From NCBI GenBank assembly GCA_026225275.1, contig JAMFSL010000090.1, positions 1-64,000 of the forward strand: a stretch of DNA of 64,000 nt. The letters are read 5' to 3'. Under the pieces are notes generated by a model. It was not told the origin of the DNA. It worked only from the letters and a program-made list of their open reading frames with translations, and ran no database searches. How positions within the stretch are numbered: the stretch's first letter is position 1; every line of letters starts with the position of its first letter. This DNA comes from Puia dinghuensis. GTDB lineage: Bacteria > Bacteroidota > Bacteroidia > Chitinophagales > Chitinophagaceae. Positions 4,227-28,950 of this stretch are shown here, piece by piece. A program made the translations under genes and the position numbers.

Positions 4227-4229
4227 ACT

Positions 4230-9921: not shown

Positions 9922-9955
9922 TTAGGGTGAATGGTGAGCGTGCCGGGTGGATCAG

Positions 9956-10003
9956 GAGGCGAGTCGCCTACGCCGAGGCTTCGGCGACCGAGGGATCGGC
10001 CTG
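9956..10003. repeat. Dispersed GC-rich palindromic element, intergenic copy
   Basis: Three nested inverted repeats follow one another: AGGCGA-G-TCGCCT, GCCGA-GGCT-TCGGC and CCGA-GGGA-TCGG, then ATTTTTG. It sits 35 bases after the last glycosidase gene. It shares the GCTTCGGCG and CCGAGGG strings with copies near 25110, 28300 and 31045. It may double as a transcript 3'-end hairpin. Confidence 0.6.
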
Positions 10004-10036
10004 ATTTTTGGTGAGACGGGGATATAGAGCGGGCTG

Positions 10037-10068
10037 TTTGCATTTTAGCATTACTTTTTCTATATTGC
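10037..10068 (+). promoter_or_regulatory. Candidate Bacteroidota-type promoter
   Basis: TTTG at 10037-10040, a 20-base spacer and TATATTGC at 10061-10068 resemble the Bacteroidota -33 TTTG / -7 TAnnTTTG pattern, with one mismatch in the -7 box. The start codon follows 17 bases later. Confidence 0.45.
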
Positions 10069-10085
10069 GACCATCCAATCAACTC

Positions 10086-10517
10086 ATGAAAAAACTATTC
10101 CTCAGCGTACTCATTTTTCCTTTTGCCGGTTCGGCAGGGCTGCAACGCATCCCATCATTATCAACGACTCATCTGGCGGAAGTGCGGAGTGGCCAATGGC
10201 CGATGGATCTCGAGCGGGACATCGATAGAAGGGATACGTCTTATTCGCTTATTTTCCGCGATCAGCAGGTGGTGGATGAGGTCGTGATGGACACGCTGGC
10301 CTTTCCCAATCTGCAACAGCTGAAATATTTGGGGCAGGCGCTGACCGTTCTGAAAAGCGGCCACAACGGGGATATCGCCACCTTTAAAAGTTATTCTATT
10401 AAGAGGGCGGATAAGAAATTCGACAATGTCTGGTATATATTGAGAGACAAATACGGGTTAGCGGATTTTCAACAGCCCGAGGCGGATATTATGTGCAAAA
10501 CTATAAAGGGTCTCTGA
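10086..10517 (+). CDS. Small secreted protein of unknown function (paralog 1)
   Basis: 143 residues; not recognised. The ATG at 10086 is preferred over an in-frame upstream start because it opens a typical signal peptide (MKKLFLSVLIFPFAG) and follows the candidate promoter. The mature part shares a long pattern with the next gene: LxxVRSGQWPxxLER, FRDQQ, FPNLQQLKY, QALTVLK, then FQQPEAD near the end. No cysteines or catalytic signature stand out, so a small beta/alpha secreted domain is the most that can be said. The two genes are 57 bases apart in the same direction and are probably one transcript. Confidence 0.75.
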   Translation: MKKLFLSVLIFPFAGSAGLQRIPSLSTTHLAEVRSGQWPMDLERDIDRRDTSYSLIFRDQQVVDEVVMDTLAFPNLQQLKYLGQALTVLKSGHNGDIATFKSYSIKRADKKFDNVWYILRDKYGLADFQQPEADIMCKTIKGL

Positions 10518-10574
10518 TATAATAAATTTATACAACCTCCGTTGATTTAAATTGAAACGAAAGAAAATTCCGCT

Positions 10575-11009
10575 ATGAAGCCACTAATTATTTTATCTCT
10601 GTTCGCTACGCCTTTTTTTGCAAAGGCACAGTTCACTATTTCCAATTCCTCGACTACGAGTCTGCTGGAGTTACGGCAGGGGACATTTCCGCTGGAACTG
10701 CAACGGGTCATTAAAGAGACGGACACCTGTTATGTGCTGGAGTTCCGGGATCAGCAATTTACCTCTGAGGTCAATATGTCAACGCTGCGGTTCGGCAATC
10801 TGCAACAGCTGCGTTATTTCATGCAGGCCCTGGCGGTGCTGAAAAAGGGAAATACCGGTGATGTTGCCAAATTCAAAGATTATACGGTGAAAAGGGTGGA
10901 TGTTAAAAAAGATGGCATATGGTATACGTTGATCTGCGGTGAGGGGGAAACAACCAATTTTCAGCAAACCGAAGCCGATAAGATGGTGACCGCTATCAAG
11001 AGTTTGTGA
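10575..11009 (+). CDS. Small secreted protein of unknown function (paralog 2)
   Basis: 144 residues with a signal peptide (MKPLIILSLFATPFFAKAQ). It is a clear tandem duplicate of the preceding gene: LLELRQGTFPLELQRV, FRDQQ, FGNLQQLRY, QALAVLKKG, GDVAKFKDY and FQQTEADKM align along the whole length. The first third, between the signal and FRDQQ, is more diverged, with substitutions spread through the rest. It ends exactly where a convergent lipoprotein gene ends, at 11009/11010, with no room for a terminator between. Function unknown. Confidence 0.75.
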   Translation: MKPLIILSLFATPFFAKAQFTISNSSTTSLLELRQGTFPLELQRVIKETDTCYVLEFRDQQFTSEVNMSTLRFGNLQQLRYFMQALAVLKKGNTGDVAKFKDYTVKRVDVKKDGIWYTLICGEGETTNFQQTEADKMVTAIKSL

Positions 11010-11471
11010 TCACTCGCGAGACAATCCCACATTACTTAAGAGCCGAATTCCAATCGGCATAGGAGTAAAACCGACACTGGTTAATGTTAAGCTATTCGGG
11101 CTTGTAAAGTCTGCAACATAGAAAATGACAGGGCTTTGGGGATAGGAATTGCTCACCGTCAATGTATCCGATGATGATATCATGTATGTCGCCGTATCAA
11201 TAGTGCTGCCTTCGTTGATATATAGTTTTCCATCGGATGTAAAGCTATAGTAAGTATCAGTACTGTCAGATACAGAGCTTTTGAAGACAGTGCAATTTAT
11301 TCCCCCCACGGCAGGACCTTCGTCGCATGATGAGTCATATGCAATTTTCCATTTGCCAATGAGTGAATTTGCCAAAGAGGAATTGCCGGAGCTCTTTTTG
11401 CAAGAGCAATAAGTGATGGCCAATAATATAGCACCCGACAATATAAAAAAAAAGGTTTTTGTTTTGGTCAT
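11010..11471 (-). CDS. Lipoprotein, lipocalin-like type
   Basis: 153 residues. MTKTKTFFFILSGAILLAITYCSCKK gives a lipoprotein signal with a Cys pair; the mature part begins SSGNSS and continues to LIGKWKIAYDSSC. LxGKWxx followed by YYSFTSDGKLYI is typical of the lipocalin-like small lipoproteins that abound in Bacteroidota. The site of action is inferred to be the outer membrane or periplasm. The ligand is unknown. It stands alone, convergent with the paralog pair and followed upstream by the terminator of the large T9SS gene. Confidence 0.65.
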   Translation of the reverse strand: MTKTKTFFFILSGAILLAITYCSCKKSSGNSSLANSLIGKWKIAYDSSCDEGPAVGGINCTVFKSSVSDSTDTYYSFTSDGKLYINEGSTIDTATYMISSSDTLTVSNSYPQSPVIFYVADFTSPNSLTLTSVGFTPMPIGIRLLSNVGLSRE

Positions 11472-11517
11472 ATTCAGGTTGACAAGTAAATGACAGCCTG
11501 CGTTGCACTTTGATATA

Positions 11518-11550
11518 ATAAAAAGCCCTCCATTGTTATGGAGGGCTTTA
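11518..11550 (-). terminator. Rho-independent terminator
   Basis: AAAGCCCTCCAT and ATGGAGGGCTTT form a perfect 12-bp stem around a 4-base loop. On the minus strand it is followed by TTATTAT, and it lies 38 bases past the stop of the 1296-residue gene. Confidence 0.8.
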
Positions 11551-11587
11551 CTATGCCTGTTCGGGCTTTTTTCGGAGACTTTGTTTC

Positions 11588-14500
11588 TTACAGCACGACT
11601 ACTTTTTCTATCACCGTACTACCATTAGGCATGATGATACGGATCAGGTAAGTGCCTGCGGACCATCCTGCGGCGGAGATCTCTTTGGACGTGTCCGTAA
11701 AGGCTGCCTGCTGAACCAGGAGTCCGGTGGCATTATACACGTTCACATACTTAAGTCCCGCTCCCGGGGTGATCAGCGTGAAGGATCCGCCTCTTGCTAC
11801 AGGGTTCGGGAAGAGCTGTACTGCTGATCCTGCGGCGCTGGTCCCTACGACCTGGATTCCAGACAGCGCCTGCTGACCGGACAGCTCAGTGGCGAGAATG
11901 CGATAGTAAAGAACCGTGGCGGGTGCGTTGACATCCGTGTAGGTAAAGGCTGTTTCGACGCCTGGCGCCGGTACCGTAGCTATATCACTATAGGTGACCC
12001 CATCGGCGGAGCGCTGGACCGTAAAGGAAGCCAGGCTGCCGGGGATGCCCGTGGTCCAGTCGAGCAGCACATTTGCTGACTGCCGTTGTGCCGTGAAAGC
12101 CGTAAAGACGAGCGGCAGGGCAATCGGATCCGACGAGGTGACCATGGCGGAAGAGAATTTCTGGAAGTTATCTTCAGGGAGGTCTTTGGCCTCAATTCCA
12201 TCATTATAAAATACCGTAGCCCCATCATCGGAGATGACCTGCAGTTGATCGAGTGCCAACTGACCGCCCTGGTTGACCTGTATCAGGGCTTCGGGGTTTT
12301 GGCCCGTGACGTCAAATGAGGTTGCCTGTACCGGAGCGTCTGTTGCATTGCCCGACCATGTATAGATAGCCGGGTTCGAGGTGCCGTCATAGCTGCCGGC
12401 GGCGATGACATAGGTGCCGTTCGTCAGCCGGATCATTTCGCGGATGCCGCGGCCGCCGAGGTTGAGTTCGATGGGTGCGCCCAATGTCGCCGTATCCGTG
12501 GGGGCGCCGTTATTGAACCAGGTCTCGAAGTTGAGGATCGGGGCAATCACTGCGTTCGTCCGGTTGGCTGTAGGCACCAGCGGAGCGCGGAAGCCCATGT
12601 ACAGCGTCGTATTATCCGGGGCGAATACCATGCCTTCCAGGTTAAAGCCATTGATCGTCTTGGGATTTGTGCCTGCGGCTGCCGAAGCCGAGAAGTTATA
12701 GCCATTCTTATCACCCCAGTTGATCAGCTGCTGTCTTAGTGATACAACTCCGCCGAAAGTGAATGCCGTGGTTGCGCCTGTGCCGCTGATGTCGACCCTG
12801 AAGGTGCGGTTACGGTTGTCTTCTACGCCGTAGGGGGTGGAGCTGCTGTTGCTCATGGAGCCCGACCAGTAGACGCGGCCTGTGGTGATCGGGCTGACGG
12901 CGCTCATTTCGACGTCTACCTGTTTGTAATTGCCAGGTGAGCCGTCGGTCAGGCCGAGGTTATTGTTCACCGTATAGTCGAAAGTCGTCACGGGTAGGCC
13001 GGAGGCCGCGCGGTTATAGACCAGGAGGCGGTTCTGCTGGTCATCGCCGATGACCATGTACTGGTTATCCAGGCCATAGGCTGTAGAAGCGTCCGAGGAG
13101 CCTGTCGGCCAGGTGACCGTGCTCGACGAAGAGGTGAAGGTGGATTGCGAGGCTGCATAGTCGATGACATAGGAGCTGCTGTCCGTACCGCTGCTGACCG
13201 TCACTGTAATCGAAGCATAGCCTACGCTGGCGGGAACGATCTGCAGGTTATACGAAGCGATGCTGCCTGTCAGGATGAGGTTTGCCGCTGGTACTACTGT
13301 CTGGTTACTGCTCCAGGCGGTAACCTTCAGCTGATTGACCGGCAAACCGCTGCCACCTGCGCCGATGGTGAAATAGAATCCCAGTGTAGATACGGGGTCC
13401 AGCGGATCGCCGATGACGCTGCTAATCGTATAGGGGCTGGCGGGAGAAGCCGAATCGCCCTCGTCGAGGTAATTGCTGGTGTTTGTTACGTCCATGACGA
13501 TCGTCGGGGCATTAGGGTCTACGTAGCAGGGGTTGAAGGCTACAGTGGCCATGGTGCTCTTGCCGGGGCTGCCGATGTCGCCGTCGCCGGAGGTATAGGA
13601 TCCTTCCGCGTCGCCGACCTGAGAGAGCGTCCAGCCTGCGATGCTGTCGATACCCAATGCTGCCTTCGATACATAACCGCTGATATCCTGGGTGCGGATC
13701 GTGCCCGGGAAAGTCTGGTCGCCATAGGTAAGGCGGTCGACCAACTGGCCTTTATTATCATACAGGTTGATCTGGTCGCTGCGGCCCAGGTTGTCGGTAT
13801 TGCCGCCGATCACGGGGACGCCGGCGCAGAGGTTCCAGTCTTTGCGGAAGGTGTCCGTCTGGGTTTCTGTCAGGATGACCGATTCACCCGGTTTAACTAT
13901 ACCGTAGGTGCTCAGGCTGACGGTGCCAGGTGTGGCGCCGTTGTCATCATAGCTCCAGCCCGTCATGTCGATCGGTGTCGAGCCTATGTTGGTGAACTCG
14001 GCAAATTCCCCATCGTTGCCGCTATACATATATTCTGTGATCCGCATGAGCGTCGGAGATGCGTCGTTGTCCTGGATAGTGATCAGTTGGGCAGTCGTGG
14101 CGCCCAGAGTGATCCCGGATGAGGGGTTGCTGATCTGGAGCGTATCGACTTCCAAGCCTTCCACTACGTTGTCATCCACTACTGTGAAAGTGGCTGTGCC
14201 TGTAGTTGCGCCGCCCGGAATAGTAATGGTATTACCGGACAGGGTATAGTCGCTCGTAACGCCTTCGTGGTTCGAGGCCGTGAGCGATACCGTCTGGTTG
14301 GCCGATACCGGCGCCGATGCTGTTGCGGTGATCGTGACGACCGTTTGTGCGGATTCTGAAGCCTTGTTGGTGCTTACCGAGAGGTTGACTGTGACTGGGG
14401 TCGGGATGATCGTGCCGGTGGGTGCGAAGGCCACTCCTTTAATGACGGCAGTAGCCGGAGACGCCGTATATAGTACGATATCATTGGCTGTGTTGATGTT

Positions 14501-15478
14501 CAGGTCTGCGTTATATCCGGCAGCATCCGTGAGATTGACGACGCTATTACCGGCCGTGCCGCCGTCGAGGGTCGTCACGAAGAGAGTGGCGCCGCTGCCG
14601 GGGGCTTGTATCGTCTGTGCAGCCAGGCCGAAGCCGCCGTTGGTATTGCTCGTGCTGCCGATGGCGGAGGGCATCGTGTAAGCAGAGCCATTGGCTACCC
14701 AGGCGCCGCTGACCAGCGAGAATTTGTTGATCGTTCCTACGCCGCCGTTCTTGCTTCCGTCGTTGGACAGCGTGTAGAGAACGTCATAGGTGCTGCCGTT
14801 CGAACCCGAGGAGACCAAATAAAAATCCACCAGATCATTGTTGGCCGGTATCCCGTTGAGGGCTGTGATGACGCCGCTGGTGGGAGGAGCGGCGATGGTG
14901 CTGACGCCTGCGGCTGTCTTAGATGCCTGGGACATATAAACGACGCCGCCGAAGGCTTTGGTGCCGCGGAAGTTGCCGGTGGGGGTCGGCGAGGTGGCGC
15001 CATTGGTATAGATGCCACCCTGATCGCCGATGAACCAGGTGTTGTTGTCGGGGGTGGTTGCTCCGCGTGTCTGGTCCCCGGAGATACCCGTGTAGGTGGT
15101 CGCGATGGTAAAGGTCTGCGAGGCGTTGAGCGTGCCTACTGCCCGGGGATTCAGGCCGTTGACGTTGCCTGTGGCCGCCGTGTTGACACCGGTGAAGCAG
15201 AGTAGCGTGCCGTCGTTGCTGTTCGCCAGATAGGCTGTCGAGGTGGCGCTGCCGGAGATCTCAAAAATGTTGGCGCCACTCGATGGAATAGCCGTAGTAC
15301 TGACGGGAGATTGTCCCGCAGTAGTAGTCTTCAGTTCGATGACGCTGCAATTGATATTGCTGCTCGAACCGGCAGCCTGAAGGATGGCCAGATTGCCGGG
15401 AGTGAATTGGGCTTTTAGAGAGGATATGGATAGGAAGGACAGGAGCAGCAGCGCTGCCGTGCGTAGAGGTTGGATCAT
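11588..15478 (-). CDS. Large T9SS-secreted protein: Calx-beta, lamin-tail and DUF3616-like regions
   Basis: 1296 residues. It has a signal peptide (ending SLKAQ), a propeller-like region to about 350, a Calx-beta domain (about 360-470, ending in the DNDASP motif), a lamin-tail domain (about 475-640, LMRITEYMYSG), and a long DUF3616/phytase-like region (about 790-1110, LEGMVFAPD). An Fn3-like segment (FTAQRQSANVLLDW) follows, then a C-terminal type IX sorting domain (LFPNPV ... GTYLIRI). Such proteins are exported across the outer membrane and anchored or released. The role is not known; adhesion or calcium-dependent extracellular work is an inference. It is transcribed alone and has its own terminator. 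Confidence 0.85.
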   Translation of the reverse strand: MIQPLRTAALLLLSFLSISSLKAQFTPGNLAILQAAGSSSNINCSVIELKTTTAGQSPVSTTAIPSSGANIFEISGSATSTAYLANSNDGTLLCFTGVNTAATGNVNGLNPRAVGTLNASQTFTIATTYTGISGDQTRGATTPDNNTWFIGDQGGIYTNGATSPTPTGNFRGTKAFGGVVYMSQASKTAAGVSTIAAPPTSGVITALNGIPANNDLVDFYLVSSGSNGSTYDVLYTLSNDGSKNGGVGTINKFSLVSGAWVANGSAYTMPSAIGSTSNTNGGFGLAAQTIQAPGSGATLFVTTLDGGTAGNSVVNLTDAAGYNADLNINTANDIVLYTASPATAVIKGVAFAPTGTIIPTPVTVNLSVSTNKASESAQTVVTITATASAPVSANQTVSLTASNHEGVTSDYTLSGNTITIPGGATTGTATFTVVDDNVVEGLEVDTLQISNPSSGITLGATTAQLITIQDNDASPTLMRITEYMYSGNDGEFAEFTNIGSTPIDMTGWSYDDNGATPGTVSLSTYGIVKPGESVILTETQTDTFRKDWNLCAGVPVIGGNTDNLGRSDQINLYDNKGQLVDRLTYGDQTFPGTIRTQDISGYVSKAALGIDSIAGWTLSQVGDAEGSYTSGDGDIGSPGKSTMATVAFNPCYVDPNAPTIVMDVTNTSNYLDEGDSASPASPYTISSVIGDPLDPVSTLGFYFTIGAGGSGLPVNQLKVTAWSSNQTVVPAANLILTGSIASYNLQIVPASVGYASITVTVSSGTDSSSYVIDYAASQSTFTSSSSTVTWPTGSSDASTAYGLDNQYMVIGDDQQNRLLVYNRAASGLPVTTFDYTVNNNLGLTDGSPGNYKQVDVEMSAVSPITTGRVYWSGSMSNSSSTPYGVEDNRNRTFRVDISGTGATTAFTFGGVVSLRQQLINWGDKNGYNFSASAAAGTNPKTINGFNLEGMVFAPDNTTLYMGFRAPLVPTANRTNAVIAPILNFETWFNNGAPTDTATLGAPIELNLGGRGIREMIRLTNGTYVIAAGSYDGTSNPAIYTWSGNATDAPVQATSFDVTGQNPEALIQVNQGGQLALDQLQVISDDGATVFYNDGIEAKDLPEDNFQKFSSAMVTSSDPIALPLVFTAFTAQRQSANVLLDWTTGIPGSLASFTVQRSADGVTYSDIATVPAPGVETAFTYTDVNAPATVLYYRILATELSGQQALSGIQVVGTSAAGSAVQLFPNPVARGGSFTLITPGAGLKYVNVYNATGLLVQQAAFTDTSKEISAAGWSAGTYLIRIIMPNGSTVIEKVVVL

Positions 15479-15549
15479 AAGCGTTACGAGTTTGCCGCAA
15501 AGGTTCCGTCCGAAAATTATGCGAATGTTAACGGAGTATTACCAAAATG

Positions 15550-16536
15550 TTAAGGGGTACGATTTTCGGTGAATTTTCGTTGCGGGTCGGTGGAGAGGGA
15601 ATGATAGATATGCCAGGCTGCATAGAGGTCCTCGGCGGCGATGCCCAATGATTTGAAGAGGGTGATCTCATCGGCGGAGGTGCGGCCTTTTTTGCTTCCT
15701 ATCAGTACTTCGCCTATTTCACCTTTTACATCCGCCACTGTGATCGTGCCTTCCTTTTGGGGGATGATGAATTCGCCGGCTTCCTTAGTCAGTGATTCGA
15801 GGCGGTCTGTGAACAGGCTGGAGCGCGTCATAGCGAAGGTGTCGACTTCGCGGGTATTGGGGGTACAGGCGCCGACGACGTTGAGATGGGCGCCTGGGCT
15901 AATCCATTCGCCTGAGAGGACAGGCTGGGGGCTCGCGGTGACCGTGCAGATGATGTCTGCTTCACGAACGGCGGATTGGGCCGTGTCGTGGATGATGATG
16001 GGGCGGTGGGCGTTTTTTTCTTTGAGTTTTTCGGCGTGGGCTTTGTTGCGGCCCCAAAGGTTGATCTGTTTGATATTTCTTACCAGCCCTATGGCTTCGA
16101 TATGTCTTTCTGCCTGTTCACCTGTGCCCAGTATGGCGAGGTGGGCGGCGTCTTCTTTTGCAAGCAGCCGGGTGGCGACGGCACTGGCGGCGGCCGTACG
16201 GATCGCAGTGATCTCTTCTGCGTCGAAGAGCATTAGCGGTTGACCATGCTGACCATCGAAGAGCATGACCACGCCCTGGTGAGAGGGGTAGCCGGCGGCA
16301 CCGTTGCCGTGGAAGACTGTGATGATCTTGATGCCGATGATGTCGGGGCCTTCTGCGTAAGCGGGCATCATGCCCAGCAGGTTGCCGTGGTTCGGGAGGC
16401 GCATTAGTGAACGGAGCGGTTGGAGGGTTTTTCCGTGGGCGAGGTCGCGGAACATGGTGTCCATGAGGGGGATGCATTCACTCATGGGAAGGAGGGAGGA
16501 GATTTGTTCTTTAGTGATGTAGAGGGGGGCTTTCAT
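15550..16536 (-). CDS. Ornithine cyclodeaminase / mu-crystallin family protein
   Basis: 328 residues, cytoplasmic, NAD(P)-dependent. The family pattern is clear: N-terminal dimerisation part, GIKIITVFHGN, GVVMLFD, AEEITAIRTAAASAVA, then the Rossmann turn LGTGEQAERH and VNVVGA-type strand (LNVVGACTPNTRE). Members deaminate ornithine to proline, reduce delta-1-pyrroline-2-carboxylate, or act on other imino acids; sequence alone does not choose between them. The stop is 8 bases upstream of nothing obvious, and the start overlaps no other gene. The DoxX-type gene on the same strand ends upstream by 8 bases, so the two are probably co-transcribed. Confidence 0.85.
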   Translation of the reverse strand: MKAPLYITKEQISSLLPMSECIPLMDTMFRDLAHGKTLQPLRSLMRLPNHGNLLGMMPAYAEGPDIIGIKIITVFHGNGAAGYPSHQGVVMLFDGQHGQPLMLFDAEEITAIRTAAASAVATRLLAKEDAAHLAILGTGEQAERHIEAIGLVRNIKQINLWGRNKAHAEKLKEKNAHRPIIIHDTAQSAVREADIICTVTASPQPVLSGEWISPGAHLNVVGACTPNTREVDTFAMTRSSLFTDRLESLTKEAGEFIIPQKEGTITVADVKGEIGEVLIGSKKGRTSADEITLFKSLGIAAEDLYAAWHIYHSLSTDPQRKFTENRTP

Positions 16537-16544
16537 TATCAGTT

Positions 16545-16904
16545 TCAGTTTCGTTTAGTGAATTGCCAGGCCCAGAAAATAAGGAGGAGTTGGATGGGTA
16601 GGCGGACGATGGCCAACCAGGTGTAAGGGTTGTGGCGGCGCGAATAGTCCAATGCCATCTGGATGTTAGCGGGAAAGACGGCGATGAGGAGGGCGATGAT
16701 GAGCCAGGCGGCGAGCCAGCGGGTGGCGATGGGCAGCAGGAGCAGGGCGAAGATTATTTCGCAGACGCCGCTGATATAGACCATGGGAAGGTGATAGGGA
16801 ATATAGGGGGGCATGATACGCTGGTACATCCGGGGGTGCCAAAAGTGATTGACGCCGGCGAGGAGGTAGAGGAGGGTCATGCTATAGAGGGAGAATGACT
16901 GCAT
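16545..16904 (-). CDS. DoxX-family small membrane protein
   Basis: 119 residues with four membrane segments: LLYLLAGVNHFWHP, an MVYISGVCEIIFALLLLP stretch, WLAAWLIIALLIAVFP and LPIQLLLIFWAWQF. NHFWHPxxY and NIQMAL are typical of this DoxX-like group. A longer in-frame reading from 17111 is unnatural and ignores the hydrophobic start, so the ATG at 16904 is chosen. Function unknown; related proteins associate with redox or detoxification systems. It precedes the ornithine cyclodeaminase-like gene by 8 bases. The divergent 231-base gap to the next gene shows no confident promoter. Confidence 0.75.
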   Translation of the reverse strand: MQSFSLYSMTLLYLLAGVNHFWHPRMYQRIMPPYIPYHLPMVYISGVCEIIFALLLLPIATRWLAAWLIIALLIAVFPANIQMALDYSRRHNPYTWLAIVRLPIQLLLIFWAWQFTKRN

Positions 16905-17135
16905 GTTGTGTAAATTACGTATTCTTTTTGGCGCGAGTGGAAAGTTGCCGAGGGACGGACCATGCAAAAACGATAGGCTTTGTACCAACTTGTTCGAAGT
17001 TGTACAGGGCCTGAATTGGGTTGCTGCCTGGTTCTCTTGAACTTTACTTTTAAGGCGGCTGCGGACCGGGAATGTCCGGCGAGTGCTTTCGGGGTCGTCT
17101 TTCACTGTCAATCAATCATCGGTAAAGGTAAACGT

Positions 17136-17939
17136 ATGCGTAAATTTACGGGGGTGGCACCTTATTTCTATGGTGCGGCGATTGCCGCTTTTGGCATCAT
17201 CCAACTGGTGATACAGAACTTTTTGAGCAGCTTTCTACCGGTGCCACCCACCTTGCCGTTTCGCTGGCTGTGGATGATGCTGACGAGCGTTGTCTTTATC
17301 CTTTCCGGACTGACCATTGTCGCCGGTATCTGGCGGCGACTGGGCTTAGTGGTGGCGGGGATGATCCTGGCCATTTTCTTGCTGGCATTACAGCTGCCCC
17401 TCCTGCTGATGAATCTTCACAATGGAAATAACTGGGCGATAGTTTTCGAAGGGGTCATGCTGACGAGCGGCGCCTTTATCATTGCCGCCGAATGGCCGGG
17501 GGGGGTGGTGATCAGCCGGCGATGGGATAGGACGATCGACGTACTGGCTATTGTCGGTCATTATCTGTTTGCCCTAGGCCTGTTTGTCTTTTCCATCCAG
17601 CATATCATGTACTTCGACTACATCCTGTCGCTGATCCCAGCCTGGATGCCGGCGCGGCTGGTGCTGAATTACCTGGTGATCATCGGCTATATCTTATGCG
17701 GCGTGAGTATGGTGATCGGCCGGAAAGTCGGGTTGGCGACGAGTTTACTGGGCATGATGTTCTTCCTGTGGGTATTGCTGCTACACTTACCCCGCGCTGT
17801 CGGCAAATGGAATGTGGAGACCGAATGGACGAGTCTCTTCGTTGCGTTGGCCGTTTGCGGGATCGCTTTCAGCATGGCCCGGCGGGAGTATAGTGAGAGC
17901 TTGGAATATGGCATGTCGTTTGTGGCAAAAGGGGGGTAA
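17136..17939 (+). CDS. Multi-pass membrane protein, doubled DoxX-like layout
   Basis: 267 residues with about eight hydrophobic segments. Two similar halves are visible: an N-terminal set from APYFYGAAIAAFGIIQL to GVMLTSGAFIIAAEWP, and a C-terminal set beginning LAIVGHYLFALGLFVFSIQHIMY. Both place an aromatic-rich helix before a helix containing a small-residue pattern, as in DoxX-like proteins. The ATG at 17136 is chosen over a 156-base-longer reading because the hydrophobic region starts just after it. The FtsX-type permease gene begins 18 bases later, suggesting co-transcription. Function is not recognised. Confidence 0.65.
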   Translation: MRKFTGVAPYFYGAAIAAFGIIQLVIQNFLSSFLPVPPTLPFRWLWMMLTSVVFILSGLTIVAGIWRRLGLVVAGMILAIFLLALQLPLLLMNLHNGNNWAIVFEGVMLTSGAFIIAAEWPGGVVISRRWDRTIDVLAIVGHYLFALGLFVFSIQHIMYFDYILSLIPAWMPARLVLNYLVIIGYILCGVSMVIGRKVGLATSLLGMMFFLWVLLLHLPRAVGKWNVETEWTSLFVALAVCGIAFSMARREYSESLEYGMSFVAKGG

Positions 17940-17957
17940 AACCTAAGCCAGCCAACC

Positions 17958-20345
17958 ATGCTAAAGAACCTCCTTTCTGTCGCTCTGCGCAATTTCAAAC
18001 GAGATAAATGGTATAGTCTGCTGAATATCCTGGGGCTGACGATTGGGATCACGTTCGGGCTTTTATTGATCTTTTATATAAAAGATGAGCTGAGTTACGA
18101 CCGTTATAATGAAAAGCTGGACAGGATCTACCGGATCAACTCTTACATCAAGGAGCCTGAAAAGGATATGCTGAAATGGACGAGTACGCAGCATCCTCTT
18201 GGGCCTATGTTGAAAAGGGAGTTTCCGGAAGTAGAAGAATCCGTTAGGTTTGTCAATGACGGCAAAGACATGTTTCAGCTGGACGATCTGCGTCTCTACA
18301 TAGAAAAGGTGTATTACGCCGATAGCACGGTGTTCAAGGTCTTTACCTATCCTTTCCTGGAAGGCGATCCCCGGACGGCCCTGGTAGCCCCTCATTCCAT
18401 GGTGTTGACCCAATCGGTAGCGGAAGCGTATTTTGGGAAGAGTACAGGCATTGTCGGTAAATCGTTGCGGAATGACAAGGGTGAGGTCTTTAAGATCACG
18501 GGGGTGGTAAAAGATGTGCCCATGCATTCGCATCTTCGATTCAACATATTGCTATCGTTGAGTACAGCGGGGAAAGATTTCGATCAGAACTGGGGAGGCT
18601 TTAATATCTACACCTATGTCCTGCTGAGGCCGAACGTCGATGCTGCGACCTTTGAAAAGAAGCTGCTGCCCATGTATGATAAGTATATGGCTCCCATTTT
18701 TGCCCAATACAATATCAAGATCCACTATGGGGTACAGCCGGTAGGCGCCATTCATTTACATTCCGATATGGAGGGCGAGCCGGAAGAGCTAGGGAGTATT
18801 TCCTATATCTATATTTTTGGTTCGGTAGCCTTGTTTATGCTGCTAATAGCCTGTATCAATTATATGAACCTGACGACGGCCCGTTCCGCCAGGAGGGCCA
18901 AAGAGATTGGTATTCGAAAGGTAACAGGGTCTACCCAAATACAGCTGGTCGCGCAGTTTCTGATAGAGTCTACGCTGACGGCTATTTTTGCCCTGCTGCT
19001 TAGTATTGGATGTATAGCTTTGCTGCTGCCGCTGTTCAATTCGCTTTCAGGAAAATCTATTTCTTTTGGCGCCCTAATGGAGCCCTCGACTTTTCTGATC
19101 CTTCTGGCGGTCATCCTGTTCGTAGGGGTGGTAGGCGGAAGTTATCCGGCCTTTTATCTCTCGAAGTTTAATCCCATCCATGTGTTAAAAGGGGCTCTTT
19201 CGAAAGGTTCCAGCAATGCTACTTTGCGCCGGACATTGGTGGTGGTGCAGTTTTCGATCTCGATGATCATGATCATCTGTACCTGGGTCGTTTACAACCA
19301 GCTGAAATATCTGCAAAATAAGGACGTCGGATTTGACAAGCACGAAGTGGTGTCATTGACGGTAAATGCGAGCAGCGATGTCAGCGGGAAGATCTCTGCC
19401 TTCAAAAATGAAATGCGAAAGAATCCGCAGGTTATTGCCGTAAGCACGTCCCAGCTCGTCCCCGGAAACGATCCCGGTTTCAACCTGTTTGAAATTGAGT
19501 CCAAAAAGGGCTTTGTCGATAAGGGGGTATTCGTATACGGCGCGGATGAAGACTATTTCAAAACGCTGGGTATGACTATCAAGAAAGGTCGAAATTTTTA
19601 TAGCCGTTCGTCCGATACTTTGCATGGCATCATTGTCAATGAGAACATGGTCAACTATTTTGGCTGGGATAACCCGATCGGGAAACGAGTGAAATTTCCA
19701 GGAGACACGTCGGGCCGTTATTGGGAAGTTGTTGGGGTCGTGAATGATTTCAACCAGCGGTCGCTTTATAACCCTGTTGCGCCATTGATCATTCGTTATA
19801 ACCAAAATAATGCCGGCATCCAGCTCAAGCTGGATCCAAAGAATATCCCCGCAACCATCGCCGGCATTGAAAAAACATGGAAAGCTTATTTTCCTGACCT
19901 TCCCTTCACCTATAAATTCCTTGACCAGGATTTCGATTCACAGTATGCTGCCGATCAAAAAAGGGGTAAGATATTCACTAGCTTTTCCATTCTGACGATC
20001 TTCATCACTTGTCTGGGTTTACTGGGGTTGATCGCCTTCACCACGGAACAGCGGCAGAAAGAGATCAGCATCCGGAAGATCATGGGTGCGGGGATCGGGC
20101 AGATCGTGCCGTTGCTGACGACGAATTTTATTGTACTGGTGGGTGTATCGTGCCTTGTCGCTTTCCCTATAGCTTGGGTATTTATGCACAACTGGCTGAA
20201 GATATTTACATATAATACTGGTCTTACGCCGTTGCCATTTTTACTATCGGCACTGACCGTGTTGCTGATCACGATGCTGACCGTGGCTTTTCATACTTTA
20301 AAGGCAGCGGTTGCCAATCCGTCGAAATCGCTGCGGACGGAATGA
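17958..20345 (+). CDS. ABC transporter permease, FtsX/MacB type
   Basis: 795 residues. An N-terminal membrane helix (LLNILGLTIGITFGLLL) precedes a large periplasmic MacB-like core. Three helices follow near 285-400, containing the MNLTTARSARRAKEIGIRK motif, then a second periplasmic domain, and a final three-helix block (about 670-785) with EISIRKIMGA. This two-core layout is typical of the Bacteroidota 800-residue permeases. No ATPase gene is adjacent, so the energy partner must be encoded elsewhere. Substrate unknown; peptide antibiotics, lipids or lipoproteins are the usual family options. A homologous gene lies at 31389-33866. Confidence 0.88.
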   Translation: MLKNLLSVALRNFKRDKWYSLLNILGLTIGITFGLLLIFYIKDELSYDRYNEKLDRIYRINSYIKEPEKDMLKWTSTQHPLGPMLKREFPEVEESVRFVNDGKDMFQLDDLRLYIEKVYYADSTVFKVFTYPFLEGDPRTALVAPHSMVLTQSVAEAYFGKSTGIVGKSLRNDKGEVFKITGVVKDVPMHSHLRFNILLSLSTAGKDFDQNWGGFNIYTYVLLRPNVDAATFEKKLLPMYDKYMAPIFAQYNIKIHYGVQPVGAIHLHSDMEGEPEELGSISYIYIFGSVALFMLLIACINYMNLTTARSARRAKEIGIRKVTGSTQIQLVAQFLIESTLTAIFALLLSIGCIALLLPLFNSLSGKSISFGALMEPSTFLILLAVILFVGVVGGSYPAFYLSKFNPIHVLKGALSKGSSNATLRRTLVVVQFSISMIMIICTWVVYNQLKYLQNKDVGFDKHEVVSLTVNASSDVSGKISAFKNEMRKNPQVIAVSTSQLVPGNDPGFNLFEIESKKGFVDKGVFVYGADEDYFKTLGMTIKKGRNFYSRSSDTLHGIIVNENMVNYFGWDNPIGKRVKFPGDTSGRYWEVVGVVNDFNQRSLYNPVAPLIIRYNQNNAGIQLKLDPKNIPATIAGIEKTWKAYFPDLPFTYKFLDQDFDSQYAADQKRGKIFTSFSILTIFITCLGLLGLIAFTTEQRQKEISIRKIMGAGIGQIVPLLTTNFIVLVGVSCLVAFPIAWVFMHNWLKIFTYNTGLTPLPFLLSALTVLLITMLTVAFHTLKAAVANPSKSLRTE

Positions 20346-23605: not shown

Positions 23606-24538
23606 ATGAAAAGCAGGTTATTAGCTGTTATACTGATCATGAGCTGCCTTGCAGGATATAGCATGCCGTCGTCAGATACGACTACCTTGTTAGGGCGTTG
23701 GGATATTAACGTATACTACCCCGGGAAAATTCTGCCCTCATGGCTGGAGGTTACGAAATCTGGTAACCGTACGCTGGTAGGACGGTTTGTGGGTACTGGC
23801 GGAAGCGCGCGACCGATTTCGCGGGTGTATTTAGTGGATGGCAAAATGAGCTTTTCCATTCCGCCGCAATGGGAGCGGGATGACAAGGACCTGACCGTCG
23901 AAGGTGTTCTGCAGGGAGACAGTCTTTCAGGAACGATGGTGACGCCAGGCGGCACGACATACAACTGGGTAGGCCACCGCGCTCCGACCCTTCGGCGCAG
24001 CGGGATCATTATGTGGGGCGCGCCGGTGAAACTTTTCGATGGCGCCGATCTGAAAGGCTGGCATGCGTCGAGTGAGAACAATCAATGGTTAGCGGAGTCC
24101 GGCATTCTCCGCAGCCCGCACTCCGGGTCGAATATTATAACAGATGAGAAGTTCACCGACTTCAAGCTGCATATTGAATTCCGTTATCCTGATGGCAGCA
24201 ACAGCGGGGTATATCTGAGAGGCCGTTATGAGGTTCAGATCCAGGACACTAAGTTGCCCGAGCCGCCAAATAATCAAATGAGCGCGGTATATGGGTTTTT
24301 GCCACCGATCGAGCAGATGGCGAAGGGATCGGGTCAATGGCAGTACTATGATATAACATTAGTGGGGCGGTTGGTCACCGTTGTCTTCAATGGCAAGACG
24401 GTGATCTGCAATGCGGAGATACCGGGTGTTACCGGCGGTGCGTTGGACAGCAATGAAGGGGAGCCAGGACCGATCTATCTGCAGGGGGATCATGGGCCGA
24501 TCGAATTCCGGAATATCACTATCACGCGGAGGCAATAA
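23606..24538 (+). CDS. DUF1080 (3-keto-disaccharide hydrolase-type) protein, exported
   Basis: 310 residues from the ATG at 23606, which begins a signal peptide (MKSRLLAVILIMSCLAGYS). Residues about 28-130 form a beta-rich extra domain; the DUF1080 jelly roll follows (VKLFDGADLKGWHA, NSGVYLRGRYEVQI, then GPIYLQGDHGPIEFRNI). DUF1080 domains have been linked to hydrolysis of 3-keto-glycosides and to carbohydrate binding. It leads a run with a membrane protein, a subunit-3 protein, a GMC oxidoreductase and a TIM-barrel protein. An alternative start at 23552 would add a short non-signal leader and is disfavoured. Confidence 0.82.
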   Translation: MKSRLLAVILIMSCLAGYSMPSSDTTTLLGRWDINVYYPGKILPSWLEVTKSGNRTLVGRFVGTGGSARPISRVYLVDGKMSFSIPPQWERDDKDLTVEGVLQGDSLSGTMVTPGGTTYNWVGHRAPTLRRSGIIMWGAPVKLFDGADLKGWHASSENNQWLAESGILRSPHSGSNIITDEKFTDFKLHIEFRYPDGSNSGVYLRGRYEVQIQDTKLPEPPNNQMSAVYGFLPPIEQMAKGSGQWQYYDITLVGRLVTVVFNGKTVICNAEIPGVTGGALDSNEGEPGPIYLQGDHGPIEFRNITITRRQ

Positions 24539-24541
24539 GGC

Positions 24542-25141
24542 ATGGAAAAATTGATTGGCGTGCTGTCGGGAATAGCTATCGGCAGCGCGCAGCTGATCTA
24601 TCTCATCAATGGATTGCAAAAGAAAGTTACGCCCAGTGTGCTGTCGTGGTTTGGCTGGGCCTGCCTGATGGGGATGAGTGTGGTTTCCCAGGTGATTGCC
24701 AAAGGGTGGCAATGGAGCATGACCGCCATTCTTTGCTCGACGGCCGGATGTATAACGATTGCGGCGGTGGCCTTTTTTAGCGGGAATTATTCTTTCAGGC
24801 GCCGTGACTGGTGGTTTTTATTGGCGGGGTTGTCGTGTATGGGTGTATACCTTGGGTCGGCCAATCCGTGGGTGACGACTATCTTCGCTATCATTGCGGA
24901 TGCACTGCTGGGCATACCGACGTTCGTTAAAGCTTACAGGGATCCGGTTACCGAACGGTCGGCTGCGTGGATACTGGGGGTGGTGTCATCGTCGTTGGCG
25001 CTGGCAATATGTGTGGGGCATGATGTGATCTACGTATTGTTCCCGGCATATTTGTGGGTGTTCAATGCGGGGATGGTAGGGTTGACCAGGCGCCGTCGCC
25101 AAAGGCTATGGCGCCCGAGGGAGGGAATGATGAATTTTTAA
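24542..25141 (+). CDS. PQ-loop/SWEET-like membrane protein
   Basis: 199 residues with about seven hydrophobic segments. Two similar stretches, AQLIYLINGLQKKVTPSVLS and LLGIPTFVKAYRDPVTERSA, each have a helix, a basic turn and a Ser/Trp helix, as in PQ-loop proteins. This suggests a duplicated carrier, but the family is not certain. It starts 3 bases after the DUF1080 stop, so tight coupling is likely. The last residues (RRRRQRLWRPREGMM) come from a copy of the dispersed GC-rich repeat, which appears to have replaced or extended the native C-terminus. Confidence 0.6.
   Translation: MEKLIGVLSGIAIGSAQLIYLINGLQKKVTPSVLSWFGWACLMGMSVVSQVIAKGWQWSMTAILCSTAGCITIAAVAFFSGNYSFRRRDWWFLLAGLSCMGVYLGSANPWVTTIFAIIADALLGIPTFVKAYRDPVTERSAAWILGVVSSSLALAICVGHDVIYVLFPAYLWVFNAGMVGLTRRRRQRLWRPREGMMNF
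25089..25124. repeat. Dispersed GC-rich palindromic element, short copy at a gene end
   Basis: GGCGCC-GTCGCCAAAGGCTAT-GGCGCC forms an inverted repeat followed by CGAGGGAGGG. It equals the copy at 28252-28316 with about 38 inner bases missing. It encodes the basic tail of the PQ-loop-like protein. Confidence 0.65.
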
Positions 25142-25231
25142 CCTGTATTAGTCGATTTAGCACTTATTAGCGGATGGATGCGTGACGGGATGTAAAAGAT
25201 TACCTACATTTCTTGTCTCAATTGCTCTGTC

Positions 25232-25684
25232 ATGAACCGACGTCACGCTGTTACACATCTTACCATTGTTGCGGGCGGATTGATTACTCTCCCTTTTTGG
25301 ATGACGGCCTGTCGCATGAGCGATAAGGATACGCATTTATCCAGCTTTACACCGGAAGAACAAGCTACGCTTGCGAGGATGGTTGACACGATCATTCCCG
25401 CGGGGGCAGGAACGGCGGGGGAGCCCGGCGCGTTAGCGGTAGGGGTGGATAAATTTCTTATTAAGTTAATAGATGATTGTTATGAGGCGGCGGACCGGGA
25501 TAAGGTGAAGCGGCAATTGGCGGCGTATGGCCATTCGACGGATAAGGAGCAGCAAGACTTTATCGCCCTGATCAAGAGTGAGACCATCAGGGGATTCAAT
25601 ACTTCACAGAAGGTCATGGAGGATTATTTACATTACAAGGTTGCGCCAGGTCATTACTACGGTTGCATCGATCTTAAAGCATAA
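25232..25684 (+). CDS. Gluconate 2-dehydrogenase subunit 3 family protein (Tat lipoprotein-like)
   Basis: 150 residues. The start NRRHAVTHLTIVAGGLITLP is a twin-arginine-like signal; WMTAC supplies a possible lipobox Cys. The mature core FTPEEQATLARMVDTIIPA matches the small subunit of GMC-type membrane dehydrogenases, and DYLHYKVAPGHYYGC resembles its C-terminus. The partner GMC subunit starts 4 bases later. In known complexes the small subunit carries the export signal and the flavoprotein is carried with it. The electron acceptor (often a cytochrome c) is not encoded nearby. Confidence 0.82.
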   Translation: MNRRHAVTHLTIVAGGLITLPFWMTACRMSDKDTHLSSFTPEEQATLARMVDTIIPAGAGTAGEPGALAVGVDKFLIKLIDDCYEAADRDKVKRQLAAYGHSTDKEQQDFIALIKSETIRGFNTSQKVMEDYLHYKVAPGHYYGCIDLKA

Positions 25685-25688
25685 AGCC

Positions 25689-27392
25689 ATGCCAGATAAT
25701 AATACAGATTCCGCGAAAAAAAGGACGTACGATGCGATCGTCATCGGATCCGGCGCCAGCGGCGGCTGGGCAGCCAAAGAGTTTTGCGATAAGGGGCTGA
25801 AGACTTTGGTGTTGGAAAGAGGCCGGGAAGTCAAACATATCAAAGATTATCCGAATGCCAGCAAGCCGCCGTGGGATTTCGAGCATCGGGGCACGGTCAC
25901 CCTCGAAGAGAAGAAGAATCACCATAACGCCGTGTTCCTGCGGGAAGAGACCCTCAACTGGGCGCTCCCTGACGACGAGCAACCCTACATCCAGGAAAAG
26001 CCTTTCCGCTGGGTGCGCGGCTATCATATGGGCGGTAAATCCCTATTATGGGCGAGGCAAACACAACGCTGGAGCGATTTTGATTTTGAAGGACCGGTCC
26101 GTGACGGGTTCGCGGTCGACTGGCCCATCCGGTATAAAGACCTCGAGCCCTGGTACAGCTATGTAGAGAAATTTGCGGGAATTGCCGGCAACAGGGACGG
26201 TCTGGCTGAACTACCCGACAGCGAGGTGATGCCGGGCTTTGAGATGAGCTGCATCGAAATGTATTTCAGGGACAGCCTAAAGAAAAATTTCGCGGACCGC
26301 CACCTGATCCAGGCACGATGTGCGCATCTAACCGACCCACAGCCTATTCACCAGCAGCAAGGGCGCACCAAATGCCAGAACCAGACCATGTGTAACCGCG
26401 GTTGTGTTTTCGGCGGCTATTTCAGCAGTAACGCCAGTACGCTGCCCTGGGCCGAACGGACAGGAAACCTTACCATCCGGCCACATTCCGTTGTCCACTC
26501 CGTCATCTATGATGATAAGAAAGGTAAAGCGACCGGGGTTCGGATAATCGATGCCACGACGAAGGAGATGATTGAATTCTATGCGCCGGTGATCTTTGTC
26601 AATGCCTCGACCCTCAACAGCAGTGCGATCCTGCTGAATTCGACTTCCAGCCGGTTCCCTAATGGGTTGGGCAATGATAGCGGACTGCTGGGGAAATTCA
26701 TTTCCTGGCATAATTACCGCGGTAAAGGCGGCGCCGAATTCGAAGGATTCAAAGATAAAAAGACTGACGGACGCAATCCCAGTAACAGTTATATTCCACG
26801 ATTCAGAAATCTGCGCAAACAGGATACCGACTTTCTCCGGGGATATGCCATCGGCATCGGCGGGGGCCGGTCATTCGATTCGGATACCAGTATGATAGGC
26901 GACCAGCTGCGCGAAAATCTATTGCATCCGAAACCCGGTAACTGGCATATCAGCAGTTGGATGATGGGGGAATGCGTGCCACTCGAGAAGAACCATCTCC
27001 GGCTCCATCCCGATCTGAAGGATAAGTATGGTATCCCGCAGATCATCCTGTCCTGCGAATGGTCGGAGAACGACGATAAGATGGTGCAGGATTATATCGA
27101 GCAATCGACGGCGATGTTCGAGAAAGCCGGGTTTATCAATATCAAGATCAATGATACGAAGTCACCGCCCGGGAGCGATATCCACGAGATGGGCGGGGTA
27201 CGGATGGGACATGACCCGAAGGCATCCCTGCTGAATAAATGGAACCAGCTACATTTCTGCAAGAATGTTTTCGTGACCGATGGCGCCTGTATGACCTCTA
27301 CCAGCTGCCAGAATCCGACCCTGACCTATATGGCGATGACGGCCCGCGCCGTGGACTACGCCGTGGAAGAGGGTAAGAAAGGAAATATTTAA
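25689..27392 (+). CDS. GMC oxidoreductase (FAD), glucoside 3-dehydrogenase-like
   Basis: 567 residues. The start at 25689 is chosen because it follows the subunit-3 stop by 4 bases and precedes the FAD fold; the 25578 start overlaps that gene. The dinucleotide motif is IGSGASGGWAAKEF, with LVLERGREVKHI, and the C-terminal end has GGVRMGHDPKASLLN and NPTLTYMAMTARA. It has no signal peptide, as expected for a cargo flavoprotein. Known relatives oxidise sugars at C3 (glucoside 3-dehydrogenase) or act on other alcohols. A C3-oxidase role fits the DUF1080 and TIM-barrel neighbours but is an inference. Confidence 0.88.
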   Translation: MPDNNTDSAKKRTYDAIVIGSGASGGWAAKEFCDKGLKTLVLERGREVKHIKDYPNASKPPWDFEHRGTVTLEEKKNHHNAVFLREETLNWALPDDEQPYIQEKPFRWVRGYHMGGKSLLWARQTQRWSDFDFEGPVRDGFAVDWPIRYKDLEPWYSYVEKFAGIAGNRDGLAELPDSEVMPGFEMSCIEMYFRDSLKKNFADRHLIQARCAHLTDPQPIHQQQGRTKCQNQTMCNRGCVFGGYFSSNASTLPWAERTGNLTIRPHSVVHSVIYDDKKGKATGVRIIDATTKEMIEFYAPVIFVNASTLNSSAILLNSTSSRFPNGLGNDSGLLGKFISWHNYRGKGGAEFEGFKDKKTDGRNPSNSYIPRFRNLRKQDTDFLRGYAIGIGGGRSFDSDTSMIGDQLRENLLHPKPGNWHISSWMMGECVPLEKNHLRLHPDLKDKYGIPQIILSCEWSENDDKMVQDYIEQSTAMFEKAGFINIKINDTKSPPGSDIHEMGGVRMGHDPKASLLNKWNQLHFCKNVFVTDGACMTSTSCQNPTLTYMAMTARAVDYAVEEGKKGNI

Positions 27393-27403
27393 AAAATCTT
27401 TTT

Positions 27404-28252
27404 ATGATGAATAAATGTGTTTCTCTTTTCATTGTGCTCGCTATTGCCGGCGGATCCGTTCTTGCACAAAAACCGTTGTATACTTTTCCCCTGGGTGTAG
27501 AGGGCTTTACCTATCGAAGGGATTGGGCGGCGAGCGTGCCCAAGACGCTGGATACGGTAAAAATGATGGGATTTACCGAACTGGAAGGCGGTAGTGGTCA
27601 CATGCCCTGGGCGGAGTTCAAGCAACTATGCGATGAACGGGGCATCAGTATTCCGAGTATCGGGGCCGACTATAAAAAAATGGTCGCGAATCCCGACTCC
27701 ATCGTCATGCAGGCGAAGGCGTTAGGAGCCAAATATGTGATGTGTGCATGGGTGCCGCATAGCGGAGGGGTGTTGACCTTCGACAATGCGAAACAGGCGG
27801 TCGACGACTTCAACCGCGTCGGCAAGATCTTTTACGATGCGGGGCTGACCTTTTGTTATCATGCCCATGGCTATGAATTTCAACCTTACCAGGGAGGGAC
27901 GTTGCTGGATTATATCATCAATAATACTGATCCAAAATATGTCAGCTTCGAGATGGACATTATGTGGATCCAGTTCGGCGGGGGTGATCCGTTGGCGTTG
28001 CTGAAGCAATATGGGCATCGGTGGAAGCTGATGCATCTGAAGGATTTCAGGAAAGACACGCCTAAGAATTTGACGGGGTTGACCGGGGCGGAGAACTCCG
28101 TTCCGCTGGGACAAGGGCAGATCGATTTAGCGCCGATCCTGATAGAGGCGAAGAAGCTGGGGATCAAGCATTATTTCATCGAGGATGAGAGTAATGACCC
28201 GGAAGTACAGGTGCCGGAAAGTATTGCATATTTAAAGGGGTTGCGCGGGTAG
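27404..28252 (+). CDS. Exported TIM-barrel sugar isomerase/epimerase-like protein
   Basis: 282 residues. MMNKCVSLFIVLAIAGGSVLAQ is a signal peptide, unusual for a fold that is mostly cytoplasmic. The AP-endonuclease-2/xylose-isomerase-like barrel is shown by MGFTELEGG, YHAHGYEFQ, FEMDIMWIQ, LMHLKDF and IEDESNDP, which supply the expected metal-site Glu, His and Asp residues. Such proteins are frequent partners of DUF1080 and oxidoreductase genes in 3-keto-sugar pathways. It lies 11 bases after the GMC stop, within the same presumed operon. It ends immediately before a copy of the GC-rich repeat. Confidence 0.82.
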   Translation: MMNKCVSLFIVLAIAGGSVLAQKPLYTFPLGVEGFTYRRDWAASVPKTLDTVKMMGFTELEGGSGHMPWAEFKQLCDERGISIPSIGADYKKMVANPDSIVMQAKALGAKYVMCAWVPHSGGVLTFDNAKQAVDDFNRVGKIFYDAGLTFCYHAHGYEFQPYQGGTLLDYIINNTDPKYVSFEMDIMWIQFGGGDPLALLKQYGHRWKLMHLKDFRKDTPKNLTGLTGAENSVPLGQGQIDLAPILIEAKKLGIKHYFIEDESNDPEVQVPESIAYLKGLRG

Positions 28253-28316
28253 GGCGCCGTCGCCACTGCCTACGGCAAGCCTTCGGTGGTCGAAGAAGGC
28301 TTTGGCGCCCGAGGGC
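28252..28316. repeat. Dispersed GC-rich palindromic element, full-length intergenic copy
   Basis: Outer arms GGGCGCC and GGCGCCC enclose CAAGCCTTC...GAAGAAGGCTTT, an inner inverted repeat, and the string CGCCACTGCCTACGG. Its outer part equals the 25089 copy. It overlaps the final base of the TIM-barrel stop and lies in the 260-base gap to the next gene; the rest of the gap shows no gene or clear promoter. Confidence 0.65.
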
Positions 28317-28512: not shown

Positions 28513-28950
28513 ATGATACACGCTAAGGAACTCCGCTACGGAAACAAAGTTCAGACTCAAGATGGTGAAGTCATTACAGTGCAGCAAGTTCTGTCACATT
28601 CCCTCATTTACGATACCCAAATAAAGGTGAGCCGTGAGGCTACTGCTGTCAGGGGGTCCTTGCGGACGGCCTATGCCAGTCAGTTTGTCGAGGTGGTCAA
28701 GGAAGCCGATTTCAATGAACTCGAACCTATTTTTCTGACGCCCAGGATACTGGAGAAGTGCGGGTTCAGAAATTTTGTGCGCGAGGAATGGATTTATAGC
28801 TTCGACAACAGCCATATCGACTGGGAATTTACGTCCGAAGGTTTGAAGCTTCGGACGTCGATCGCGGGGCAAACCAACCTCCGGTATCTGCATCAGCTGC
28901 AAAATTTCCTGTTTTTTGTGACCGGTCACGAATTGGAGCCTGAACTGTAA
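28513..28950 (+). CDS. Small conserved protein of Bacteroidota prophage type
   Basis: 145 residues with no signal or membrane segment. The start MIHAKELRYGNKV and the segment FLTPRILEKCGF, with YLHQLQNFLFFVTGHELE at the end, are hallmarks of a small protein family frequent in Bacteroidota phages and mobile regions. The role is unknown. Neighbouring genes are not phage genes; a GC-rich repeat lies upstream. Isolated, possibly a remnant or recruited gene. Confidence 0.65.
   Translation: MIHAKELRYGNKVQTQDGEVITVQQVLSHSLIYDTQIKVSREATAVRGSLRTAYASQFVEVVKEADFNELEPIFLTPRILEKCGFRNFVREEWIYSFDNSHIDWEFTSEGLKLRTSIAGQTNLRYLHQLQNFLFFVTGHELEPEL

Follow-up and report, generated by a model that had tools for sequence, protein, structure and literature searches.

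A candidate periplasmic route for O-glycoside breakdown in a five-gene run of Puia dinghuensis

The present analysis concerns a five-gene run in Puia dinghuensis (assembly GCA_026225275.1), located within the first 64,000 nucleotides, forward strand, of contig JAMFSL010000090.1; this whole stretch is referred to below as the window. The run comprises, all on the forward strand, genes for a DUF1080 protein, a small membrane protein (the PQ-like protein), a twin-arginine subunit 3 or hitchhiker protein (SUB3), the catalytic subunit of a GMC flavin dehydrogenase (GMC) and an exported TIM-barrel protein (TIM). To judge from the sequence, it probably encodes a periplasmic oxidation-elimination-hydration route for O-glycosides. 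Gene order, protein families, conserved residues, purifying selection and conservation in a sister species are direct observations. The five genes had been named in an earlier note on this DNA, and the open reading frames (ORFs) together with a Pfam scan of the window proteins placed all of them, with family matches for all but the PQ-like protein (Table 1). The 3-keto-glycoside chemistry proposed in the same note holds at the level of families, given gene clusters in two phyla and the published LacABC system with DUF1080, and is wrong or unproven in several details described below.

We infer every reaction of the route, and the order of its steps. SUB3 would export the folded GMC subunit by the twin-arginine translocation (Tat) route, as is known for its relatives. 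GMC is predicted to oxidise the glycosyl unit, most likely at C3, and electrons would pass from flavin adenine dinucleotide (FAD) to a 3Fe-4S cluster and on to a cytochrome c encoded elsewhere. The exported TIM, which by its residues and homology may be a divalent-metal enzyme of the AtOGE kind, would then beta-eliminate the aglycone, leaving a 2-hydroxy-3-keto-glycal. The DUF1080 protein, with its fold and conserved pocket, would hydrate this product to the 3-keto sugar, and may also eliminate some 3-keto-glycosides; the 3-keto sugar would then be taken up and reduced by products of genes outside the run. For the PQ-like protein, no part in the route is demonstrated. As had been noted earlier, export signals are present except on GMC and the supposed carrier, with Sec-type leaders on the DUF1080 protein and TIM and twin arginines on SUB3; all were assigned by eye.

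The best matches of TIM in the PDB are 8tct, 8tcs and 8tcd; 8tct and its kin are labelled sugar phosphate isomerases or xylose isomerase-like in the PDB sequence file, and we take them to be 3-keto-glycoside 1,2-lyases. Residues 27-277 also match 8bvk, which is AtOGE, an O-glycoside beta-eliminase. The available portion of the AtOGE study (PMC10628242) describes the conversion of a 3-keto-O-glucoside to the aglycone and a 2-hydroxy-3-keto-glycal, and His132, His134, Asp163, His189 and Glu233 of that enzyme correspond, by spacing only, to H153, H155, D185, H211 and E260 of TIM. The latter five are invariant in all 21 TIM sequences compared. The earlier note had cast TIM as an epimerase, a role that was not demonstrated; the kinship to AtOGE and the retention of its metal and catalytic residues make it more likely that TIM cleaves a bond than that it epimerises. 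It is proposed here as a probable metal-dependent 3-keto-O-glycoside beta-eliminase.

The DUF1080 protein possesses a Sec-type leader, an N-terminal all-beta domain (approximately residues 30-125) and a PF06439 jelly-roll (approximately residues 137-310), which scored 144.1 bits against a curated Pfam cut-off of 26.8. A structural model built from 43 sequences (predicted local distance difference test, pLDDT, 89.6) matched 14 solved relatives with Z of 18.4-21.4 over about residues 132-310. Among these are 9fbe and 8rr2, titled "3-keto-glycoside eliminase/hydratase," and 8tda and 8v31, titled "3-keto-2-hydroxy-glucal-hydratase." The cleavage of 3-keto-glycosides claimed for DUF1080 thus agrees with these titles only in part, several being those of hydratases or of eliminase/hydratases. 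Polar residues invariant in the 43 sequences include N199, R205, E209, Q211, D214, D295 and H296. On this model, the protein is proposed to be a 3-keto-2-hydroxy-glucal hydratase or 3-keto-glycoside eliminase.

The N-terminal beta domain, which marks a subfamily termed here DUF1080-N, has no Pfam match and no notable sequence match in the PDB, and is the least known part of the system. It was found in 5 of 198 class genomes, the window genome counted, in ORFs of 318-334 amino acids (aa). Records of DUF1080-N are spread over many Bacteroidota, from Chitinophaga to Dyadobacter, Mucilaginibacter and Arenibacter, with one metagenome-assembled genome labelled Gemmatimonadaceae. The best 80 of 549 public relatives, a set that partly overlaps with the genomes of the family sample described below, share 57-72% identity with the window protein.

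GMC aligns over residues 14-566 with the large subunit of fructose dehydrogenase (3.1e-28) and over residues 114-558 with FAD-glucose dehydrogenase, the cluster ligands of which are Cys212, 218 and 222, as given in the accessible part of PMC6719666. Residues C230, C236 and C240 of GMC match these cysteines of BcGDH by spacing (residue numbers here count from 25686, one above those based on the Met), and they are kept in all 23 distinct rows of an alignment of 25 that includes two duplicate pairs. The catalytic His/Asn pair (H500, N543) is likewise kept in all rows, with Gln throughout at the position of the disulphide Cys213 and Leu or Met at that of the FAD-linking His105. Its identification as a putative flavin and iron-sulphur dehydrogenase of the hitchhiker-exported kind is supported at the family level. 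As for SUB3, the twin arginines were seen by eye in the window protein and in 17 of 19 relatives, where the start was visible, the other two being cut by the contig. SUB3 aligns only with positions 1-61 of the 135 in the PF13618 profile and is 20 residues shorter in its centre than the protein of the sister species; of the five genes, it shows the largest nonsynonymous rate (dN) and the largest ratio of dN to the synonymous rate (dN/dS). A truncated relic was considered and ruled out, since in the alignment both ends are intact and the missing residues correspond to an in-frame deletion inside the gene.

Among 33 congeners, window genome included, the complete run occurs in two: the window genome and one sister species (G541), where GMC is 97% identical to the window GMC and the order of TIM, SUB3, PQ-like, DUF1080, bestrophin and GH43 genes is retained. 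Between the two, dN/dS (NG86) is 0.03 for GMC, 0.07 for TIM, 0.09 for DUF1080, 0.10 for the PQ-like gene and 0.17 for SUB3; all five genes are under purifying selection, with dN well below dS and each ratio under 0.2. Because the sister species has the same five genes and flanks, and this low dN applies to every one of the five, the run goes beyond chance. It is a real, selected arrangement, yet apparently a young one, and we read it as two parts, DUF1080-PQ and SUB3-GMC-TIM, joined in a recent ancestor. In a sample of 147 family genomes, only two other congeners among them, the run had seemed unique to the window genome; the sister species rules this out.

Table 1. Position and assignment of the features of the five-gene run
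Feature	Position	Strand	Description
Five-gene run	23606-28252	+	
DUF1080 protein	23606..24538	+	310 aa; PF06439 at 6.9e-42
N-terminal beta domain of DUF1080 protein	23684-24010		
Small membrane protein (PQ-like)	24542..25141	+	199 aa; PQ-loop-like by eye
Intergenic gap with promoter-like stretch TTACNTACATTTCTTGTCTCAA	25142..25231	+	90 bases; stretch retained in sister species
SUB3 (twin-arginine subunit 3 / hitchhiker protein)	25232..25684	+	150 aa; PF13618 at 2e-14
GMC flavin dehydrogenase catalytic subunit	25689..27392	+	567 aa from ATG at 25689; PF05199/PF00732
Exported TIM-barrel protein	27404..28252	+	282 aa; PF01261 at 6.1e-17

The run is composed of two parts, DUF1080-PQ and SUB3-GMC-TIM, which are separable in other genomes. 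The intergenic distances along it are 3, 90, 4 and 11 bases; it is therefore tight except 5′ of SUB3, and the single tight run described in the earlier note is borne out at the three short gaps and broken at the long one. The 90-base gap contains the stretch TTACNTACATTTCTTGTCTCAA, which is kept in the sister species; an octamer resembling it also lies upstream in G098. We take it to be promoter-like by comparison with the Bacteroidota promoter consensus. A short, interspersed, GC-rich palindromic repeat (GGCGCC...GGCGCC) is present as direct copies at 25089-25121 and 28253-28315, flanking SUB3-GMC-TIM; its 12-mer has 19 sites in the genome, about nine with the element. Introduction of SUB3-GMC-TIM by these direct repeats was ruled out, both copies being absent from the sister species, which bears the module. 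At 25089-25141 the repeat has overwritten the 3′ end of the PQ-like ORF, and for this reason the last residues of the protein are unlike those of its sister.

For the PQ-like protein, the Pfam search gave nothing at 0.001, and relaxing the limit to E 10 brought up no PQ-loop family model; the name "PQ-loop-like" given to it earlier reflects an impression from the sequence. A single-sequence model gave seven helices at low confidence (pLDDT 54.6). The gene is found in 8 of the 33 congeners, with an additional partial match in G555, and adjoins DUF1080 in three, namely the window genome, G541 and G548. Matches at E 0.01 or better occur in 19 of 395 class genomes and are strong in two besides the window (47% and 41%). 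The idea that the cassette has its own carrier is not supported, the gene lying away from the other four in five of its eight carriers in the stretches fetched.

Upstream of the run, on the opposite strand, are a bestrophin-like protein and a GH43 protein. Downstream lie a 145-aa protein without a Pfam match (28513-28950), relatives of which occur at 64-89% identity in loci of G541, G563 and G035, and then a DoxX protein. The window is also rich in glycan-degrading enzymes, with GH35, GH2 and alpha-L-arabinofuranosidase genes at 103-9921 and 61541-63517.

Relatives of GMC are present in 110 of the 147 family genomes. The comparison took 20 of the nearest places, each from a different genome and all outside the genus: the full run was found in none, and neither were DUF1080-N and the PQ-like protein, the upstream side being visible in 17. 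SUB3 adjoins GMC in 19, the contig of the twentieth starting inside GMC. TIM follows GMC in two (G086, G081) and is near a GMC trio in a third (G061); a GMC fragment with TIM also stands at a contig end in G076. Orthologues of DUF1080-N occur in 49 of the 147 genomes, counting the window genome and two partial genes at contig ends. With carriers defined by bit-score thresholds and kinship ignored, DUF1080-N (49 carriers) and the TIM clade (28 carriers) occur together in 23 genomes versus 9.3 expected, and DUF1080-N and the near GMCs in 18 versus 7.7. When restricted to the 67 GMC-bearing genomes of 4 Mb or more, the counts become 17 versus 12.1 (p 0.01) and 14 versus 10.5 (p 0.049), respectively. 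Co-occurrence was set aside as proof; the excess shrinks after the size filter.

Fuller clusters exist elsewhere. Plasmids of Sphingomonas parapaucimobilis, Hymenobacter volaticus and Xanthomonas sacchari carry GMC, SUB3, DUF1080 and TIM or sugar-isomerase proteins together, along with Gfo/Idh/MocA proteins, cytochrome c and an MFS or nucleoside permease; GMC, subunit 3, DUF1080 and TIM barrels thus cluster in two phyla, Pseudomonadota and Bacteroidota. In ten annotated plasmid GMC neighbourhoods, hand-picked from the listed matches and thus non-random, with incomplete PLSDB annotation, product names indicated a TIM or sugar isomerase in eight, SUB3, DUF1080 and Gfo/Idh/MocA in six each, and cytochrome c or a heme protein in five. 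A window-like TIM was detected in six of the ten (tblastn, E 0.001), and an eleventh, unannotated neighbourhood gave DUF1080, SUB3 and TIM by tblastn. The window genome itself has 11 DUF1080, 5 SUB3 and 6 GMC places, and redundancy is therefore likely. Contig C233 of that genome has, at 3962-18381, another GMC-SUB3 pair beside Gfo/Idh/MocA-, ThuA- and TIM-like ORFs, with SusC/D-like genes following downstream; by these genes, named by eye, the route is more complete there.

Several observations weigh against the O-glycoside route, and the rival explanations draw upon some of them. The solved relatives nearest to GMC, fructose and glucose dehydrogenases, act on free sugars, and the run might instead serve cyclitols or free sugars, GMC oxidising inositol or a sugar acid and TIM acting as an inosose dehydratase or as an epimerase of the keto product. 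TIM does match IolE (TIGR04379), at 55.9 bits, far under the cut-off of 290, and 3cny (IolE) is among its weaker PDB matches; its best matches, however, are the 8tct group, and the match to AtOGE is far better than that to IolE. GMC relatives also recur with DUF1080 in clusters resembling the published lactose cluster, and we consider a cyclitol or free-sugar route unlikely. That the DUF1080 protein is a carbohydrate-binding module only, as its similarity to CBM66 (Z 15.4) and lectins might suggest, is very unlikely: solved hydratases are among its top fold matches (Z 18-21), and polar residues such as N199, R205 and E209 do not vary.

A real possibility, to which we give less credence than to a single route, is that the run consists of two independent neighbouring units, SUB3-GMC-TIM being a working operon and DUF1080-PQ a separate pair of a general 3-keto-sugar enzyme and an unrelated membrane protein. 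The 90-base gap and the conserved stretch within it suggest two transcripts. SUB3-GMC-TIM is present in another genus (G081) and GMC-TIM in G086, the contig of which starts inside GMC; neither genome has a DUF1080-N orthologue, and hence the GMC-TIM pair does not need DUF1080-N. Conversely, G548 has the DUF1080-PQ pair without the remaining cassette genes, and DUF1080-N is elsewhere mostly by itself. No other labelled cassette gene was found within about 6 kb in the 19 family orthologues recovered from 20 fetched loci (two of them in congeners; some contigs short), and 72 of the 80 best public loci have none of GMC, SUB3, TIM and the PQ-like gene, several being limited by the contig. Within up to 10 kb, GMC was found in six of these loci, TIM in two, SUB3 in two and the PQ-like gene in none; the most frequent neighbour family reached 6 of the 74 loci in which the gene could be placed. 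On the other side, the two SUB3 loci, both from Dyadobacter, also have GMC, bacteria elsewhere keep other DUF1080 proteins together with GMC and SUB3, genomes with both DUF1080-N and the TIM clade exceed expectation, less so after size filtering, and the five-gene order is held in the sister species under purifying selection.

The single route must further accommodate the plasmid clusters, where no DUF1080 is listed in four of the ten annotated neighbourhoods, where those of five loci match only the C-terminal domain of the window protein (31-34%), and where those of Runella and Spirosoma oryzicola do not match it. Cytochrome c is not encoded in the run, and the window has 5 CxxCH matches versus 3.9 expected by chance, a chance-level count on which a heme subunit in the window was rejected; the remainder of the genome was not searched. 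In the available text of PMC9007349, ten Pedobacter DUF1080 genes gave no lactose phenotype, for which the authors cite possible redundancy, and in that of PMC11501099, deletions of BT2157 or BT2158 left growth on raffinose-family sugars normal.

As favoured here, the route brings a further Bacteroidota genus into the known oxidation-elimination breakdown of glycosides, and the likely role of TIM shifts from epimerisation to bond cleavage. Attention is also drawn to a subfamily of DUF1080 that carries an extra domain without a name, is mostly stand-alone and has a directly testable function. A more elaborate scheme would be a flavin-driven lyase system for glycosides in the periplasm, its work divided between a TIM eliminase and a DUF1080 hydratase of two domains; the N-terminal beta domain would dock the substrate or a partner, the PQ-like protein would move the 3-keto sugar, and DUF1080-N, widespread and mostly a lone gene, would be a general 3-keto-sugar salvage enzyme of Bacteroidota; that all of these parts hold together is decidedly doubtful.

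The oxidation-elimination(-hydration-reduction) route is already known, and the window is an ordinary, reduced and partly incomplete member. The gene order of the run was not found named in the literature, which says little, most subscription journals being outside the search. The run resembles the Bacteroides BT2156-BT2160 route (PDB 3osd, 8tda, 8rr2, 9fbe, 8tct) in pairing DUF1080 with a TIM barrel of the same families. Oxidation in that route is reportedly NAD-dependent, unlike the window system with its flavin GMC-SUB3 complex. With the Burkholderia FAD-glucose dehydrogenase gamma-alpha complex, as far as the available part of PMC6719666 describes it, the window shares the 3Fe-4S cysteines, the His/Asn pair and a Tat hitchhiker subunit; it differs in having Gln for the disulphide cysteine and Leu or Met for the FAD-linking His, and no multiheme subunit is encoded in the run.

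The LacABC system with DUF1080 is presented in the available sections of Price 2022 (PMC9007349) as a periplasmic 3-keto-glycoside route in Caulobacter, Pedobacter and Indibacter, its Bacteroidota members being already published. There too the dehydrogenase and DUF1080 genes are close and the site periplasmic, with sugar epimerase genes alongside LacABC; unlike that system, the run is without a cytochrome, reductase or transporter of known kind, and its DUF1080 belongs to the mostly stand-alone subfamily with the extra N-terminal domain. The Agrobacterium GlycDH-OGE-HYD-Gfo operon performs oxidation, elimination, hydration and reduction, according to the available portion of Bitter 2023 (PMC10628242). 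The Gfo reductase of that operon is not in the run, and its proposed hydratase is a second sugar-isomerase-type protein, a step which DUF1080 would fill in the window. Both systems combine a flavin dehydrogenase having a TAT-signal partner with a TIM-barrel protein, a beta-eliminase in Agrobacterium and a putative one here, with matching metal and catalytic residues.

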